From Sphingomonas flavescens (GTDB taxonomy: Bacteria; Pseudomonadota; Alphaproteobacteria; Sphingomonadales; Sphingomonadaceae), in NCBI RefSeq assembly GCF_030866745.1, contig NZ_CP133016.1:1116001-1180000 (forward strand): a stretch of 64,000 nucleotides of DNA. The letters are read 5' to 3'. The notes under the pieces were generated by a model. The model made no database searches. It saw only the letters and a program-made list of their open reading frames with translations, and was not told the origin of the DNA. The position numbers and the translations under genes were made by a program. Of the stretch, positions 14,631 to 61,469 are shown in pieces; position 1 is the stretch's first letter; each line of letters opens with the position of its first letter.

Positions 14631-14642
14631 GGGGGGATCAAA

Positions 14643-15356
14643 ATGCGGGTTTTGCTGATCGAGGACGAGCCGACCACGGCGAAGAGCATCGAGTTGATGC
14701 TCGGCGCGGAAGGCTTCAACGTCTACACCACCGATCTCGGGGAAGAAGGCCTCGATCTCGGCAAGCTGTATGATTACGACATCATCTGTCTGGACCTGAA
14801 CCTGCCCGACATGCACGGCTATGACGTGCTCAAGAAATTGCGCACCGCGAAGGTGTCGACGCCGGTCCTGATCCTTTCGGGCATCGGTGAAATGGACAGC
14901 AAGGTTCGCGCGCTCGGCTTCGGTGCCGACGACTATGTGACCAAGCCGTTCCACCGCGACGAGCTGGTCGCTCGCATTCACGCTATTGTCCGCCGCTCCA
15001 AGGGTCACAGCCAGTCGGTTATCCGCACGGGTAAGCTCGCCGTGAACCTCGACGCCAAGACGGTCGAAGTCGACGGCAGCCGCGTGCACCTGACCGGCAA
15101 GGAATATGCGATGCTGGAGCTGCTTTCGCTCCGCAAGGGCACGACGCTGACCAAGGAAATGTTCCTGAACCACCTGTATGGCGGGATGGACGAGCCGGAA
15201 CTCAAAATCATCGACGTCTTCATCTGCAAGCTGCGCAAGAAGCTCAGCCTTGCCTGTGGCGGCGCCAATTACATCGAGACTGTCTGGGGCCGCGGCTACG
15301 TGCTTCGTGACGCCGACGACGTCGAGGACAGCCAGCCGGTGGCGGCTGTCGCCTGA
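14643..15356 (+). CDS. ctrA: Cell-cycle master response regulator CtrA
   Basis: A 237-residue OmpR-type response regulator. The receiver domain (1-120) begins [20 protein letters not shown], with the phosphoacceptor Asp in [17 protein letters not shown] and the Lys in [17 protein letters not shown]. The winged-helix DNA-binding domain has [20 protein letters not shown] and the family-diagnostic [20 protein letters not shown]. CtrA controls replication, division and motility in alphaproteobacteria, fed by the CckA-ChpT phosphorelay. Followed by a strong terminator; monocistronic. The upstream region carries clustered GANTC sites. Confidence 0.96.
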
Positions 15357-53737: not shown

Positions 53738-56427
53738 GCCGATGCCTCTTCCTTGATGCCGTTCCAAAGTGCCGCGATGCTCTGCCGCGCCGCGTCATGC
53801 TCGGCAAGAAGCTCGTCCCAATTCGCGGCGCCGCAAGCTTCCGCGACAAGCTGCCAGGTTTCGGCGGTCGGCTTCACGTCGCCCGGCGCAACAAGCCGCA
53901 TCATCACCAGCATGCGCGACAGCAACTTTAGCGCATCAACAATATTTGCCGGCACCAAAGATTCCGCTGCTAATGCTTCAAGGGCGACTTCCAGGCGCGT
54001 GTCGAGCCCGATGTGGGTCGTCAGTTGCAGGACCTGCACCGCAAACTCGAGGTCCACGAGGCCGCCTTGACCAAGCTTGACATCGAGCGCCCCGAGCGCC
54101 GGTTTGTGACGCTCCATCTCGGCCCGCATCCGCACGGCGTCGCCAGCGATCCGGCCGCGATCGCGCGGCAAGCGAAGGATGGACTCGATCAATTCCGCCG
54201 TTCGCGCCTGCGCTTCCGTTGAACCAAGGACGGGGCGCGCGCGGCACAGCGCCATATGCTCCCACGTCCACGCCTCCTCCCGCTGATAGCGTTCGAACGC
54301 ATCGAGCGAGACAACGAGCATACCTTTTGCCCCTTCCGGCCGTAGGCGCGTGTCGACGTCGTAGAGCGGGCCGGCCGCCGTGGGCACGCTCAGCGCTGAC
54401 GTGATCCTGCTCGCGAGGCGATTGAAATAGTCGTTGGGGCCAAGCGGCTTTCGGCCACCGGACAGACCAGCCTGGGACGCAGTATGCAAATAGACGATAT
54501 CGAGATCCGAAGCGTGCGTCAGCGAATGACCGCCGAAGCGGCCCAACCCGAGCGCGACCAGCTCGCCTCCCTCGATCTCACCGTGCGCCGCCACAAACTC
54601 TGTCGTTGCCGCCCGGGCCAACGCCAGCAGCGCGCCTTCCGCGACGCGTGCATAACCTTCCGTCACCTCCAGCGGGTCACGATGACGGTCGATCAGCTGC
54701 ACGCCCAGCGCGAAGCGGCGCTCGTTCACGGCGCGGCGAACACGATCCAGGGCAACGTCGTAGGGCTGACCATCCATCGCCTGCTTCAGCGTCGCCGCGA
54801 TTTCGATGGCGGGCGGCGGCATTGCGAAGCAGGAGGCGTCGAACAGGCCCTCGAACAACTCCGGCCGACGCGCGAGTTGATCGGCAAGGGTCGGCGCGTG
54901 CGCCAGAACCTTGGCCAGCAGTCCCGCGAGCGCAGGCCGCGCTTCCAGCAGGCGGAAGAGGTTCACTCCGCTCGACAGGCGTTCGACGATGTCGCTCAGC
55001 CGGTTGAGCGCCCGGTCCGGATCCGCGCCGGCGGCAATCGCTTGGAGCAGGCCTGGCAGCATCGCTTCGAACGCTTGCTGCGCAGGCGGAGAGCGCAGCG
55101 CGCGCGCCTTGCCGGAACGCCATGCCGCAATGTGGCGAATGGCCGCTTCCGGATCTGCAAAGCCGAGGCCCTGCAATTCGCTCGCGAGGATGTCGGGGTC
55201 GTTCGACAGGCGCTGCTGGGAATCAGGCCCAAGGCCGTCGAAAATTTCGCCGGCCAAGCCGATGTGCGGCCTCAGCCTGCGCAGCAGGTCCTCACCCGAC
55301 TCCATCCCATCCAGTTGCGCGACATTGTCGAGCGCGGCCGGCTCGCGCGGAAGCAAATGGGTCTGCGCATCCGCGACCATTTGCACGCGATGCTCGACGG
55401 TTCTGAGTAGCCGGTAGGCAGCGGCCAGTTTGCGACCGGTTTCGTCGTCGAGGTGGCCGGCCTGCACCAGTGCGACGATCGCATCGAGCGTAGCAGCTTC
55501 GCGGACGGAGGCATTGCGCCCGCCGTGGATCATTTGCTGAATCTGGACGAAGAATTCGATCTCCCGGATGCCGCCGCGCCCGCGCTTCAAATCGTAGCCT
55601 GGACCGATGTGGGCGCCCTGCGCGAAATGATCGCGAATGCGGGCGGAGATCTGCCGCACCTCGTCGATCACCCCGAAATCGAGCGAGCGGCGCCACACGA
55701 ACGGCTGAATGGCATTCAGAAATCGCTCGCCTAGCGCCACGTCCCCTGCTGCCGCGCGCGCACGGATGAAAGCCGCCCGCTCCCAGGGCAGAGCGCTAGA
55801 CTCGTAATGCGAAATAGCGGCGTCGATCGGAAGCGCGATAGGGGTCACTTCAGGTGAAGGCCGCAGCCGGAGGTCGACCCGCTCGACGTACCCATGCTCG
55901 GTACGCTTCTGCAGGATCTCGACGATGCGCCGGGCGATGCGAACCGCCGCCTCCCCAACGTCATCCCGCGCCCGGCGCGGCAAGCTTCCGGGATCGAAAA
56001 GGAGCAGCAGATCGACATCGGAAGAATAATTGAGCTCGTGGCTGCCAAGCTTTCCCATTGCGATCACGGCAAAACCCGTTGGGTCGGCGTCCGGCGCGCG
56101 TTCGCGGATCGCTGCGGTCACTGCTTCGTCGATTGCGCGATCGGCGAAATCGGACAGGCGCCGCGTCACCTGCTCCAGCGGCAGTTCGCCAGCCAGGTCG
56201 CCGAGCGCGACTGCGAGCGCGAGGCCGCTTCGCTTGGCGCGCAGGACCTGCATCAATTCGCCGTCGCTGACGGCCATCGCGGCGTCGGCCGCGGCTGCCG
56301 CGCCGCTGTCAACGAAAAGCTCGACGAGATCCGGATGCGCCCGTGTCAGGGAGTACAGGAATGGCGAATGATCGCAGGCGCGGCGAAGCGCATCCTCACG
56401 GGCGGAAATCGACGAGTCGCCGGTCAT
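53734..56427 (-). CDS. glnE: Glutamine synthetase adenylyltransferase/deadenylase
   Basis: An 897-residue bifunctional nucleotidyltransferase that adds or removes AMP on glutamine synthetase according to nitrogen status. Two catalytic domains are visible: the N-terminal deadenylase GKLGSHELNYSSDVDLLLLF (about residue 130) and the C-terminal adenylylase GRFGGHSLTHASDLDIVYLH (about residue 650), each with the G-x-x-S/T..DxD metal motif. Start at the ATG at 56427 (MTGDSSISAREDALRR); upstream in-frame residues are not conserved. Divergent from the nepR-like gene, and coupled to bcp. Confidence 0.95.
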   Translation of the reverse strand: MTGDSSISAREDALRRACDHSPFLYSLTRAHPDLVELFVDSGAAAAADAAMAVSDGELMQVLRAKRSGLALAVALGDLAGELPLEQVTRRLSDFADRAIDEAVTAAIRERAPDADPTGFAVIAMGKLGSHELNYSSDVDLLLLFDPGSLPRRARDDVGEAAVRIARRIVEILQKRTEHGYVERVDLRLRPSPEVTPIALPIDAAISHYESSALPWERAAFIRARAAAGDVALGERFLNAIQPFVWRRSLDFGVIDEVRQISARIRDHFAQGAHIGPGYDLKRGRGGIREIEFFVQIQQMIHGGRNASVREAATLDAIVALVQAGHLDDETGRKLAAAYRLLRTVEHRVQMVADAQTHLLPREPAALDNVAQLDGMESGEDLLRRLRPHIGLAGEIFDGLGPDSQQRLSNDPDILASELQGLGFADPEAAIRHIAAWRSGKARALRSPPAQQAFEAMLPGLLQAIAAGADPDRALNRLSDIVERLSSGVNLFRLLEARPALAGLLAKVLAHAPTLADQLARRPELFEGLFDASCFAMPPPAIEIAATLKQAMDGQPYDVALDRVRRAVNERRFALGVQLIDRHRDPLEVTEGYARVAEGALLALARAATTEFVAAHGEIEGGELVALGLGRFGGHSLTHASDLDIVYLHTASQAGLSGGRKPLGPNDYFNRLASRITSALSVPTAAGPLYDVDTRLRPEGAKGMLVVSLDAFERYQREEAWTWEHMALCRARPVLGSTEAQARTAELIESILRLPRDRGRIAGDAVRMRAEMERHKPALGALDVKLGQGGLVDLEFAVQVLQLTTHIGLDTRLEVALEALAAESLVPANIVDALKLLSRMLVMMRLVAPGDVKPTAETWQLVAEACGAANWDELLAEHDAARQSIAALWNGIKEEASA

Positions 56428-56546
56428 GCGGTTGTTTGCACCGTTACGCGCGCGGGCCGGAAGCAACTTCTTTGCGACACCGCTCGTTGAATATTGCCAT
56501 GAACGTACGATCCAAAATGGTTTCAGCGTCGGAAAGGAGTGGAAAC

Positions 56547-56684
56547 GTGGATCGGCAATCTATCCATGTCGACATGGATCAGACGCAGGCGGGAATTACC
56601 GCCGCGCTTCGCCGTGCCTTTCAGGCGGCGGCGAACGAACCTAGCGATCGCGACTTTGCGGATTTGCTGCGCCGACTGAATTAG
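56547..56684 (+). CDS. Short NepR-like protein (second NepR)
   Basis: A 45-residue protein read from the GTG at 56547, which has AAAGGAG seven bases upstream. Its C-terminal half ITAALRRAFQAAANEPSD then RDFADLLRRLN aligns with the NepR core of the 58743-58937 gene (ALRSVYDD, VPDDFNDLLGRLS): ALR, DF, DLL and RL match. NepR binds sigma-EcfG until PhyR~P displaces it. The protein lacks the long N-terminal extension and has AAN in place of the usual (D/E)xLxExVP. It converges on ecfG, 13 bases apart. Whether it is anti-sigma, or a modulator, is unknown. Confidence 0.72.
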   Translation: MDRQSIHVDMDQTQAGITAALRRAFQAAANEPSDRDFADLLRRLN

Positions 56685-56693
56685 CGACGCCTG

Positions 56694-56711
56694 GCGATCA
56701 TTCGTGATCGC
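56694..56711. terminator. Palindromic hairpin between the nepR-like gene and ecfG
   Basis: GCGATCA and TGATCGC pair perfectly around a TTCG tetraloop across the ecfG stop codon, ten bases after the nepR-like stop. It is placed to act on both convergent transcripts, but has no T-run on either side. Confidence 0.4.
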
Positions 56712-57336
56712 GGCTCAGGTGGTCGACCTCACCCATAATCGTTTGCAGCGCCGACTTGTCGGGATCGGTCCGGTGCTGACGGCGTGACGGCAGCTTGCCG
56801 CTCGACAGCAATTGCTCGAGCGCAACACGTCCGCGCGCCACGCGACTCTTGATCGTGCCCACCGCGCAACCGCAGATTTCCGCAGCTTCTTCGTAGGCGA
56901 ATCCACCGGCCCCCACGAGGATCAGCGCCTCGCGCTGCGGCTGCGGCAAGTGCATCAGCGCCCGCTGCATGTCGCCAAGCTCGATGTGGCGATCCTGGCT
57001 GGCCGGGGCCGCGAGGATTTTCGACGCCGTCACATCGTCCCATTCTCCCTTGAAGCGCGCACGGCGCATCTGGGAGAGGAAGAGGTTGCGGAGAATGATG
57101 AACGTCCACGCCCGCATATTCGTGCCGGCCTGGAAGCGTTTCCGGGCGGCCCACGCCTTGAGCAGCGTTTCCTGCACCAGATCGTCTGCAAGATCGCGGC
57201 TCCCGGACAAGGAACGACCAAAAGCGCGCAAATGCGGGATTACCGACGCAAGCTGATCCTTGAATTCCGGATCAGACAGCGGGGCCCAATCGTCCGATTG
57301 GACGGTCGGCCGGTCCTCGTCTTCAGCGTCGGTCAA
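56698..57336 (-). CDS. ecfG: General stress ECF sigma factor EcfG
   Basis: A 212-residue ECF sigma factor. Region 2 (DLADDLVQETLLKAWAARKR, RAWTFIILRNLFLSQMRRAR) and region 4 (ALMHLPQPQREALILVGAGG, YEEAAEICGCAVGTIKSRVA) are complete. EcfG transcribes the general stress regulon from GGAAC-N16/17-CGTT promoters once PhyR~P has trapped NepR. Start is a TTG at 57336, no ATG available in frame. It is downstream of the 51-residue membrane protein, from whose sigma-EcfG promoter it is probably transcribed (autoregulation). Confidence 0.95.
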   Translation of the reverse strand: MTDAEDEDRPTVQSDDWAPLSDPEFKDQLASVIPHLRAFGRSLSGSRDLADDLVQETLLKAWAARKRFQAGTNMRAWTFIILRNLFLSQMRRARFKGEWDDVTASKILAAPASQDRHIELGDMQRALMHLPQPQREALILVGAGGFAYEEAAEICGCAVGTIKSRVARGRVALEQLLSSGKLPSRRQHRTDPDKSALQTIMGEVDHLSRDHE

Positions 57337-57643: not shown

Positions 57644-58444
57644 CTATCCGGCGGGAACTGTCGCCGCGTCGAAGAACAGGGCCTGCGCGATCGCAGCCTT
57701 GACCGTCGAACGCTGAAACGGCTTCGTGATCAGGAACGTCGGCTCCGGTCGTGTGCCCGTCAGCAAGCGTTCGGGGAACGCCGTGATGAAGATCACCGGC
57801 ACCGAGAACTCCGCAAGAATATCCTTCACCGCGTCGATGCCGCTGGAATCGTCGGCCAGTTGGATATCGGCGAGCACCAAGCCCGGCGGGCTCGAACGCG
57901 CTTGCGAAACCGCCTCATCGCGCGTGACGGCAACGCCGGTCACGTTGTGGCCAAGGTCGCGCACGATGGTTTCGATATCCATCGCGATGATTGGCTCATC
58001 CTCGATGATCAGCACGTCAGCCAACGTTTGCCGCTCGATCTCCTCAAGCGCTTCCGCGACGAGCGAGTCGACGTCCGAGGGCGAGGCGCCAATGAGATAG
58101 GCAGTGTCTTCTGACGAGAAACCTTCAAGCGAGGTCAATAGAAGAGCCTGACGAGACAGGGGTGTAATGCGCGACAAGCGGGCCTGCGCGATCCCTTCGG
58201 CGCCGGTTAGGTTGTCGCTGGGTTCCTCGCCCTCTTCAATATTGGCCGTCGACCAGATCGCGTGGAACGTTCGATACAATCCCAACCTCGGATCTACGTC
58301 ACGCGGGAATTCTTCCGGCTGGGCGACAATCGCCTCCAGCGTAGCGCGAACGAAAGCATCGCCGTGCGCTTGGCTGCCCGTCAGGGCGCGCGCATAGCGG
58401 CGAAGGAATGGCAGGTGCGGAGCAAGTTCCTGGCCAAGCGACAT
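57644..58444 (-). CDS. phyR: General stress response regulator PhyR
   Basis: A 266-residue two-domain anti-anti-sigma protein. Residues 1-130 mimic an ECF sigma factor (LAPHLPFLRRYARALTGSQA, ITPLSRQALLLTSLEGFSSE); 140-266 are a receiver domain with the phospho-Asp in PGLVLADIQLADDSSGIDAV, and FITAFPERLL and FLITKPFQ. On phosphorylation the sigma-like part captures NepR and frees EcfG. ATG at 58444. A perfect nine-pair inverted repeat crosses its stop codon. A second operon, nepR-phyP, is divergent across a 298-base gap. Confidence 0.97.
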   Translation of the reverse strand: MSLGQELAPHLPFLRRYARALTGSQAHGDAFVRATLEAIVAQPEEFPRDVDPRLGLYRTFHAIWSTANIEEGEEPSDNLTGAEGIAQARLSRITPLSRQALLLTSLEGFSSEDTAYLIGASPSDVDSLVAEALEEIERQTLADVLIIEDEPIIAMDIETIVRDLGHNVTGVAVTRDEAVSQARSSPPGLVLADIQLADDSSGIDAVKDILAEFSVPVIFITAFPERLLTGTRPEPTFLITKPFQRSTVKAAIAQALFFDAATVPAG

Positions 58445-58961: not shown

Positions 58962-60494
58962 GTGACCGCTACCGATCGTTTTGCTCGCCTGCCCACCGCA
59001 GCGAAACTCCTGCTGATCTTGACGGCGGTGCTTCTGCCCATCGGCGCCGCGCTTGCCTGGCTGGGCAATAACGGAATCCTTCAAGCTGACGCCGCACTTC
59101 AAGGCCGCAATCAGGATCAATCTCGCGCGCTCGCCTCAGCTGTCGAAAGCCTCATTGCGCGTAATGCGCTAGCGCTGCGCATCGCGGGCAACGCCGCGCT
59201 TGCCGACGGACCCGCCGGCGCGTGCGAACGCGCTCAACGGGCGTTGTCCATCGCCCCAGGCGTAGCCAGCAGTTTCGAGCTGGAAGACAGCAGCGGAAAG
59301 CCCATCTGCGCGGTCGGGGAAGTGGGTCAAACGGGCGTAATTCCCCTGACGGCGCCCGGCGATATCAAGGTGAGAATTGCAACGGGCGCCGACGCCGTCG
59401 CAATTCGCGTGGGCGTCATCAACGGCATCGTCACCGGCAATGTCCCGTTGGCCGAACTCAGCGCTGCTGCCCGCGATGCGGGCGGCAATATTGCGACGGT
59501 CATGCTGACTGATGAGGCGCGTGAATTGCGCGTGATTGGACCGCCGCCCGGCAGTGATATGCAGTTGCGGATCAGCCAGTGGCCGTTGGGCAACGGCAAT
59601 ATCATTGCGCGCATCGGCGTGCCGCGTTCCCAACTGACGACGCAGGATCAGCTGACGCTGCTCTTGCCTCTGCTGATGTGGTTTGCGGCCGCGATGATCG
59701 CCTGGCTCGTGGTCAGCAGGCTCCTGGTCCGGCCCCTGAAGAGATTAGAGCGGGCGGTGGTTGCCTATCGGCCAGGCGAAGGGCCACTCAAGCTGCCAAC
59801 CCGCGTTGGTCCCAGCACCGAAATCCAGGAGCTACGCAACGCGTTCGGCCGAGCGATCGGGCGTGTGGAGGAGTCGGAACGAGAAACTGGCGCTGCCCTG
59901 GATGGGCAAAGGCGGCTGGTCCGCGAAGTGCACCACCGGGTGAAAAACAATCTGCAGGTGGTGGCATCCCTGCTCAACATCCATGGCCGGACCGCGGAGA
60001 CCCCCGAAGCGCGCGCGGCCTATGCCTCGATCAGCCGGCGCGTCGGCGCCTTGTCGATCGTGCACCGCAACCATTTCGCTGAAATGGAAGAGAACCGCGG
60101 CATTTCGATCCGGCCTTTGGTCAACGAGCTTGCTGCTGAACTGCGCGGAACGGCGCCTGAGGACGCTCGAAGGGTCCGCATCGATTTGGACATCGATTCG
60201 CTCTCTACGACTCAGGATGTCGCGGTCGCCGTCGCGTTCCTGATCACCGAAATGGTAGAATTCGCGATGCTCAATGCGCCGGAAGCGCCAATTGAAATTT
60301 CGATGCGGCGCACGAGCGAACTCACCGCGCGGCTCGCGATCTCCAGTCCCGTCCTTGTGCCAGGCAGCGAAGATAGCCCGGAGAAAATTCAATTCGAACG
60401 GATCATTGGCGGCCTGGCCAAACAGCTGCGGTCTCTGCTTGAACGCAATCTCGGCCGGTACAGCGTCGAATTGCCGGTATTCCCCCCGCGCTAG
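58962..60494 (+). CDS. phyP: PhyP-like membrane sensor with HisKA_2 domain and degenerate ATPase domain
   Basis: A 510-residue membrane protein: helix at about 14-34, a periplasmic domain, a second helix at about 228-250, a HAMP-like linker, then a HisKA_2 domain with the His of VREVHHRVKNNLQVVASLLN (residues 324-325). The C-terminal domain is shaped like a HATPase but the N-box motif ExxxNA is EMVEFA, with Phe at residue 434 where Asn binds Mg-ATP, and no DxGxG loop follows (SSPVLVPGSE). In Sphingomonas the protein PhyP from the phyR locus is a phosphatase acting on PhyR. GTG start at 58962. Operon with nepR. Confidence 0.88.
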   Translation: MTATDRFARLPTAAKLLLILTAVLLPIGAALAWLGNNGILQADAALQGRNQDQSRALASAVESLIARNALALRIAGNAALADGPAGACERAQRALSIAPGVASSFELEDSSGKPICAVGEVGQTGVIPLTAPGDIKVRIATGADAVAIRVGVINGIVTGNVPLAELSAAARDAGGNIATVMLTDEARELRVIGPPPGSDMQLRISQWPLGNGNIIARIGVPRSQLTTQDQLTLLLPLLMWFAAAMIAWLVVSRLLVRPLKRLERAVVAYRPGEGPLKLPTRVGPSTEIQELRNAFGRAIGRVEESERETGAALDGQRRLVREVHHRVKNNLQVVASLLNIHGRTAETPEARAAYASISRRVGALSIVHRNHFAEMEENRGISIRPLVNELAAELRGTAPEDARRVRIDLDIDSLSTTQDVAVAVAFLITEMVEFAMLNAPEAPIEISMRRTSELTARLAISSPVLVPGSEDSPEKIQFERIIGGLAKQLRSLLERNLGRYSVELPVFPPR

Positions 60495-60553: not shown

Positions 60554-60579
60554 GGAACCCCATACGAACCATCGACGTT
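60554..60579 (+). promoter_or_regulatory. Orphan sigma-EcfG promoter pointing toward the tatC 3' end
   Basis: GGAAC (60554-60558), 17 bases, CGTT (60576-60579). It lies 60 bases after the phyP-like gene on the plus strand and no plus-strand gene follows for more than 1 kb, so it should drive a non-coding transcript starting near 60586. Confidence 0.7.
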
Positions 60580-60585
60580 ATGTTG

Positions 60586-60690
60586 TTCGGATAGTGACCT
60601 TTTGCCCCCCCGCTCTCGCTATCCGCTTAAATGGGCCCGGAACCGCCAACCCTCCCCCCCCCCGGTGGCGCTTCCGGGCCCTCTATTGTC
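60586..60690 (+). ncRNA. Predicted stress-induced small RNA with a C-rich loop, antisense to the tatC 3' end
   Basis: From the predicted start the transcript folds at once: CGGATAGTGA (60588-60597) pairs with TCGCTATCCG (60616-60625), nine Watson-Crick pairs and one G-U, with the 18-base loop CCTTTTGCCCCCCCGCTC holding seven consecutive C. A second hairpin has GGGCCCGGAA (60633-60642) with TTCCGGGCCC (60672-60681) and an inner CGCCA/TGGCG, enclosing a ten-C run; the weakly U-rich TCTATTGTC follows. Caulobacter GsrN, a sigma-T controlled RNA, also acts through a C-rich loop. The 3' half is antisense to the last ~60 bases of tatC. Existence is predicted, not shown. Confidence 0.5.
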
Positions 60691-61469
60691 TGGGGCCCAT
60701 CGACAATCGCAGAGCTTGAACGCGCAGCCTTACGTGCTGCACGCCAGTGGGTGATGCGAATGGCCAGGATCGCGAATTCGTATAGGCCGTAGAGCGGCAC
60801 GAGCAGCATCAGCATCGAGACGACGTCCGGGGGCGTCAGCACGGCAGCGATAGCCGCGGCGCCGACGATGGCATACCGACGCGATCTCGCGAGCTGTTCG
60901 CGGGTGACAATCCCCGCACGCTCGAGGATCATCAGCAGGATCGGCGTCAGGAACGCAGCGCCGAAACCGAACAGGAAACGGGTGACGAATGTCAGGTAAT
61001 TGCCGACGCCTGGCAGCGCCTCCTGCTGGATACCGCCGACATTGCCTTGGTAACTCAGCAGAAAGTGTAGCGCCCAAGGCATGGCGAAGAAGTAAGCAAA
61101 GCTCGCGCCGGCCGCGAAAAACAAGGGGGTCAGGAGCAGGAACGGTAGAAACGCCTTCTTCTCCTTGGCGTAGAGGCCCGGCGCGACGAAACGCCACAGC
61201 TGCGTGGCGATCACTGGAAAGGCAAGCATCAGCGCGGCGAAAAGCGACACCTTAACTTGCGTGAAAAAAGCCTCAAAAATGTCGGTGTAGATGAGCTTGC
61301 CCTGCCCAGCGCGCAGCAATGGCTGAACCAGCACGGCAAAGATGTTCTTCGCGAAGGCAAAGCAAACAAAGAAGCAGATCACGAGAGTCGCGAGCGACCA
61401 GAGAAGGCGCCGCCGGAGCTCGATGAGATGCTCAAGCAAAGGCTGCTTGGTATCGTCGATATCTTTCAT
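60627..61469 (-). CDS. tatC: Twin-arginine translocase subunit TatC
   Basis: A 280-residue membrane protein with six helices, the receptor for RR signal peptides. MKDIDDTKQPLLEHLIELRR, RFVAPGLYAKEKKAFLPFLL, FGFGAAFLTPILLMILERAG and the end of helix 6 are typical. The C-terminal tail is Gly/Pro-rich and encoded by a run of ten G (60654-60663) on the minus strand; a slip there would change only the last few residues. ATG at 61469 overlaps the tatB stop by four bases. The 3' end is overlapped by the predicted antisense RNA. Confidence 0.96.
   Translation of the reverse strand: MKDIDDTKQPLLEHLIELRRRLLWSLATLVICFFVCFAFAKNIFAVLVQPLLRAGQGKLIYTDIFEAFFTQVKVSLFAALMLAFPVIATQLWRFVAPGLYAKEKKAFLPFLLLTPLFFAAGASFAYFFAMPWALHFLLSYQGNVGGIQQEALPGVGNYLTFVTRFLFGFGAAFLTPILLMILERAGIVTREQLARSRRYAIVGAAAIAAVLTPPDVVSMLMLLVPLYGLYEFAILAIRITHWRAARKAARSSSAIVDGPQTIEGPEAPPGGGRVGGSGPI

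Follow-up and report, generated by a model that had tools for sequence, protein, structure and literature searches.

Background

In the alphaproteobacteria the general stress response has been described chiefly at the level of transcription; the small RNA GsrN added a post-transcriptional arm in Caulobacter, while the lone sphingomonad of that study seemingly has none. That sphingomonad is Erythrobacter litoralis, the only one in the tree of the GsrN paper. In the published description, GsrN of Caulobacter crescentus carries six C in its 5' loop and pairs with G-rich stretches, including that of katG; by BLASTn it occurs only in Caulobacteraceae, the genes of other groups having been predicted mainly from position and promoter; GsrN-like genes lie mostly near ecfG-nepR-phyR; and no apparent gsrN-like gene is reported for E. 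litoralis (PMC5869019).

Two other small RNAs bear on the comparison. CcnA, also of Caulobacter crescentus, is described as pairing through a CCCC loop with GGGG near the ctrA start and in the gcrA leader (PMC8959179), and SuhB of Sphingopyxis granuli TFA as a 61 nt RNA whose expression follows growth rate and which is conserved in the genus Sphingopyxis (PMC6563040). For Sphingomonas melonis, the EcfG motif is given as GGAAC-N17-20-GTT, and PhyT, formerly PhyP, as a PhyR phosphotransferase; the terms sRNA, ncRNA, non-coding and intergenic never occur in the main text of that EcfG transcriptome paper (PMC6599016), and the paper on EcfG in Sphingopyxis likewise has no sRNA, ncRNA or small RNA in its main text.

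Here we analyse a locus of Sphingomonas flavescens in the window, by which we mean the whole stretch of 64,000 nucleotides under study. A sequence-only reading had described a GGAAC-N17-CGTT promoter followed by two hairpins with C7 and C10 in their loops, and both its coordinates and its description of these elements are correct (Table 1). The locus is very probably a real small regulatory RNA gene, so far uncatalogued, whose transcription and targets are predicted, because the promoter and the secondary structure persist across many related bacteria. No Rfam family (release 15) matches at its gathering cut-off in the window or in 15 related loci, and a search of the open-licence PMC literature found no report of this RNA.

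Promoter and fold of the proposed RNA

The promoter in the window agrees with the S. melonis EcfG motif, and nine bases separate its CGTT from the stem of hairpin 1, in which 60588-60597 form ten pairs with 60616-60625 and whose loop displays G-C7-G; the stem of hairpin 2 is long and GC-rich. Folding of 60586-60690 gives -46.6 kcal/mol, compared with a mean of -27.93 for 200 shuffles (z -6.97), none of which folds as well. Blastn matches from the same genus mostly start at query positions 46-50, which correspond to 60585-60589. The promoter match alone is no evidence, because the pattern GGAACN16-18CGTT has 42 matches in the 2.66-Mb genome and the reversed pattern is commoner, with 105; support must therefore come from conservation.

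Table 1. Features of the RNA locus, the general-stress locus and the candidate target in the window
Feature	Position	Strand	Basis or remark
-35 element GGAAC, EcfG-type promoter	60554-60558	+	read from sequence; kept in related loci
-10 element CGTT, spacer 17	60576-60579	+	read from sequence; kept in related loci
proposed small RNA, ~105 nt	60586-60690	+	both ends predicted; 5' end expected 5 to 9 bases downstream of CGTT
hairpin 1, 18-base loop, C7 at 60605-60611	60588-60625	+	sequence, fold, covariation
hairpin 2, probable terminator hairpin, C10 in loop at 60654-60663	60633-60681	+	sequence, fold, covariation
ecfG, ECF-type sigma factor gene	56698-57336	-	Pfam Sigma70_r2 and r4_2
phyR, response regulator anti-anti-sigma factor gene	57644-58444	-	NCBIfam NF006623, 372.6 bits, cut-off 240
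HisKA_2 gene, sensor kinase or phosphotransferase-like, at the position of phyT (earlier phyP)	58962-60494	+	Pfam HisKA_2
tatC, 3' end overlaps RNA in antisense	60627-61469	-	TIGR00945 over cut-off; stop codon 60627-60629
ctrA G6 tract and start codon, candidate target	14631-14645	+	G6 tract; CtrA model NF045991 over cut-off

Conservation within the genus

With a 161-base query, blastn gives strong matches (E<1e-25) in 34 of the 36 other same-genus genomes, the two without a match (G005 and G026) being 77 and 79% complete; the same query gives no strong match in 24 genomes of other families, where the best E is 0.02. The same-genus set that was compared consists of 36 loci from 35 genomes, including the window's own locus and two loci from one genome (G003) and excluding a contig fragment (L037, of G030) that holds only part of the RNA. 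All 36 loci carry the strict promoter GGAAC-N16/17-CGTT, with a spacer of 17 in 21 loci and of 16 in 15, and in all 36 the distance from CGTT to the stem is nine bases, while the sequence of the spacer and the flanks drift. The chance of a promoter at that fixed place is 0.0006 per locus, as estimated by dinucleotide shuffling of the 52-base stretch upstream; these and the following counts refer to drawn sets of genomes, in which relatives do not count as independent. The sequence-only reading had made its case depend on conservation of the promoter and hairpin 1 in relatives, and the 36 loci and the wider sets below bear it out.

In the free alignment of the same-genus loci (A1), 96.7% of cells pair, and eight pairs change on both sides, compared with 3.6 in shuffles, none of 500 of which is as high. 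One of five measures is weaker: the alignment has 17 further pair types against 14.4 in shuffles, a value reached by 10 of the 500.

Conservation beyond the genus

Of 296 genomes of the order, a covariance model (R1) matches 69 with E<=1e-5, every one in a single family; the E-values of this model and of the model R2 below are rough. These 69 comprise 23 genomes of the window's genus, 11 of which had supplied sequences to the model, and 46 of other genera of the same family, none of which had. At E<=0.5 the matches number 74 of 296; the five weak ones (G209, G240, G255, G311 and G103, E 0.002 to 0.4), one of which is outside the family, were left out of the count. An alignment (A4) of 47 loci chosen by R1 score at E<=1e-6, with eight from the genus and 39 from other genera, has changes on both sides in 23 of 28 pairs, compared with 11.9 in shuffles, and in 144 cells compared with 30.8, and its covariation score of 0.380, against 0.159, is reached by none of 500 shuffles; it was fitted to the R1 structure and so leans towards the model. 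A1, which is free of this bias, agrees with A4 in direction. The both-side changes in A4 fall in all 18 pairs of helix 2 and in five of the ten pairs of helix 1.

The promoter extends beyond the genus as well. Among 30 other-genus loci (a set from which L099, with hairpin 2 only, was excluded and in which the expression used by the script did not locate L082 and L084), the strict promoter is present in 20 and a relaxed form in 26, and nine bases lead to the stem in 19 of the 20 strict cases. A pattern scan of named genomes gave at least 120 loci, 119 of them with enough upstream sequence; among the matches listed, GGAAC is in place in 119/119, the strict promoter in 94/119 and the relaxed one in 109/119, and 92 of the 94 strict-promoter loci have nine bases to the stem. 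The genera among the matches listed are Sphingomonas, Sphingobium, Sphingomicrobium, Sphingosinicella, Hephaestia, Parasphingopyxis, Stakelama and Sphingorhabdus, together with unspecific metagenome names.

A second model, R2, was run on 40 genomes in which no R1 match had been accepted, 20 from within the family and 20 from outside it. It matches 16 of them at E<=1, and four of these (G101, G071, G116 and G110) also have a GGAAC promoter; the remaining matches were not counted, and all but that of G039 look like chance. Over 190 genomes of the class, R2 gives three matches at E<=0.01, two in the family and a weak one elsewhere. When the tatC side was checked in 20 family genomes with no R1 match or a weak one, the promoter and C-rich hairpins were found within 1.1 kb in three (G071, G110 and G313), and no such RNA beside tatC in 16, the loci of G119 and G132 being cut by contig ends; G101 has the RNA away from tatC, and a partial copy was found in G132. 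Since many genera of the family show no such RNA beside tatC, it is not universal in the family, and the 16 absences fit a patchy distribution.

Two loci from these searches stand apart. In the genome G313 a second RNA (L104 2001-2106, minus strand; G313:C1:940680-940785) has its own GGAAC promoter and combines a C8 loop with a very strong terminator hairpin whose loop also carries C; it is possibly a paralogue of the tatC-linked RNA of the same genome (L084). In G039, which belongs to another family (R2 E 1.9e-5), two successive hairpins with C6 loops occur without GGAAC (L112 1501-1601, minus strand; G039:C3:318808-318908); they may represent a comparable RNA controlled by a different sigma factor.

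Loops, reading frames and termination

Over 146 loci located with an expression that requires at least five C, loop 1 has a run of six to nine C and loop 2 one of six to 13; two members have shorter runs (C4 and C5 in L082, C5 and C5 in L111). A C-run that is kept and yet varies in length would suit the role of a seed for G-tracts. The same variation bears on whether the locus codes for a small protein, a reading to which the presence of an ATG somewhere in the RNA in 124 of the 146 loci might lend some colour: the runs differ by single bases, so that a reading frame across them shifts, and the changes in the stems compensate one another, which makes a coding function scarcely credible.

The element could also yield no regulatory RNA at all and serve, between the kinase gene and tatC, simply as a terminator of transcription or at the DNA level. 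It does sit between convergent genes, and hairpin 2 is terminator-like, with a following tail that is U-rich in many relatives, though U-poor in the window. Yet a terminator leaves unexplained the EcfG promoter at a near-fixed nine bases before hairpin 1, the existence of hairpin 1 itself and the invariant loop bases, and we regard this account as highly improbable beside that of a regulatory RNA gene.

Genomic neighbourhood and the overlap with tatC

The RNA is usually flanked on one side by tatC and on the other by the HisKA_2 kinase gene that belongs to the ecfG-phyR locus; in the window it is 3.2 kb from ecfG. The sigma factor gene is taken as ecfG from its position beside phyR, the nearest NCBIfam models being below their cut-offs. 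The HisKA_2 gene scores 95.5 bits with the NCBIfam PhyK model, far under the cut-off of 750, and its place and domain suggest a counterpart of PhyT. A further frame at 56343-56684 (+), whose end presumably resembles the anti-sigma factor NepR, judging by a motif, converges with ecfG and does not precede it; a 35-residue piece of it has no Pfam match.

Among loci with a recognised kinase homologue, the kinase gene precedes the RNA by at most 1.3 kb, on its strand, in 35/35 same-genus loci (L018 excluded), in 22/22 other-genus loci and, among the matches listed, in 96/98 pattern-scan loci, the exceptions being L195 and L211, with kinase identities of 26 and 32%. In most of the pattern-scan loci that are long enough, among the matches listed, phyR and ecfG are on the same side, and in several Sphingobium loci tatC is found with no kinase gene within the stretch examined.

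The sequence-only reading had also noted that hairpin 2 lies antisense to the tatC stop region, and in the window the RNA does cover the last tatC codons. It had called a second effect, on tatC mRNA, possible, and one might go further and suppose that the RNA is mainly a cis-antisense regulator, which pairs with the 3' end of tatC and alters its mRNA under stress. Of 33 same-genus loci, 29 have a tatC frame that extends into the RNA, as such a function would lead one to expect, but this holds for none of 23 other-genus loci and, among the matches listed, for 15 of 96 pattern-scan loci, some of which (e.g. L157 and L198) resemble other genera by kinase identity, and yet the RNA and its promoter are kept. 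The position at which tatC ends varies, the C-run that it would read varies by single bases, and the stem changes compensate inside the RNA. An effect on tatC is thus not upheld as a general function, and a mainly cis-antisense role is very unlikely; the overlap, being mostly confined to the window's genus, is probably incidental, tatC having run into the RNA gene.

Candidate targets

GsrN pairs with katG, and katG was accordingly considered as a target here. In 11 of 12 same-genus katG genes there is no G5 run in the 150 bases upstream, and a G4 tract near the start is present in two of the 12; with the expected G-tract absent from these leaders, katG was dropped as a target.

The boldest candidate target is ctrA (14643-15356), whose G6 tract ends six bases before the start and whose leader sequence CGGGGGG is complementary over all seven bases to CCCCCCG in loop 1. 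All 30 sphingomonad genomes compared have a G4-G6 tract ahead of the ctrA start codon; four of them (G062, G063, G086 and G145) have no acceptable match to the RNA, so that the tract is independent of it. On the fullest version of this idea, a stress RNA with two poly-C loops would act on ribosome-binding sites with the ctrA G-tract as a chief target, and the stress response would directly reset the master regulator of the cell cycle; we consider this unlikely as it stands.

Wider searches for target signatures gave the following picture. In the window's genome, G6 tracts before ATG have 53 matches, compared with 22 for the reversed pattern, and 32 of 56 G6-preceded ATGs open 50 or more codons. 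In each of the 58 genomes of the order that were searched, GGGGGG placed 3 to 12 bases ahead of ATG is more frequent than its reversed control, by about 1.4 to 14 fold: ribosome-binding sites with a G-tract seem to be widespread there. Because the excess is also present in genomes without the detected RNA, it supports no target, and G6 before ATG was rejected as a target signature. Duplex energies between the loops and the leaders of the window genes did not discriminate, and two of the 59 called window frames, in a set of gene calls that does not include ctrA, have a tract of G4 or longer before a start.

Nature and proposed action of the RNA

At the level of sequence, support comes from the promoter, its near-fixed spacing to the stem, the covarying structure, the C-rich loops and the position at the stress locus. 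We judge it likely, from these features and from analogy, that the RNA is a GsrN-like, EcfG-driven small RNA acting in trans, whose C-loops pair with G-rich mRNA leaders. Under stress, EcfG would begin transcription at GGAAC-N17-CGTT; the product would be an RNA of about 105 nt, in which a short linker joins a 5' hairpin with G-C7-G in its loop to a terminator hairpin with a second C-run, the latter hairpin presumably ending the transcript. By analogy with GsrN and CcnA, the C-loops would then pair in trans with G-rich leader stretches at or near ribosome-binding sites, and such pairing would alter the translation or stability of the bound mRNAs. Of the original proposal of a GsrN-like stress RNA, what stands is the EcfG-type promoter, the C-rich 5' loop and the position at the stress locus; an effect on tatC as a general function is not supported, nor is katG as a target.

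Alternatively, the RNA might be induced by stress and bind a protein through its C-rich loops, with no pairing to mRNA. Two exposed C-runs of variable length would also suit a poly-C-binding protein, and the target searches above support no mRNA, but the two closest precedents work by pairing, and this reading appears quite improbable to us. We know of no poly-C-binding protein for this system.

Comparison with known systems

A trans-acting RNA of this kind would work like GsrN, the likeness being judged from design and place. As GsrN is described, the two share an EcfG-type stress sigma promoter, a length of about 100 nt, a position near the ecfG-phyR locus and an exposed C-rich loop in the 5' hairpin; they differ in that 11 of the 12 same-genus katG leaders are not rich in G. 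The CcsR RNAs of Rhodobacter sphaeroides, which are stress-related and have C-rich loop motifs, are also similar by description, but they occur in several tandem copies under other sigma factors. The best sub-threshold Rfam matches, Alphaproteobacterial ar14 (RF02344) and ar7 (RF02342), are alike in general hairpin layout, but with 14.5 and 12.6 bits against gathering scores of 58.8 and 60 they do not include the present RNA as a member.

CcnA is comparable in that its C-loop pairs with GGGG near the ctrA start, where the window RNA has a candidate pairing site; it differs in being, as described, a cell-cycle RNA from the replication origin, which that description does not present as driven by a stress sigma factor (PMC8959179). 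SuhB is comparable as a trans-acting sphingomonad small RNA that binds an mRNA 5' UTR (PMC6563040), and is set apart by its description.

If the RNA is real, it would supply a post-transcriptional arm to the general stress response in a large environmental family that includes Sphingomonas, Sphingobium, Sphingomicrobium and related genera, and RNA-seq data already exist for S. melonis Fr1 (PRJEB30300). What is new relative to GsrN, as that RNA is described, is that the window RNA has a second C-run, placed in the loop of the terminator-like hairpin.
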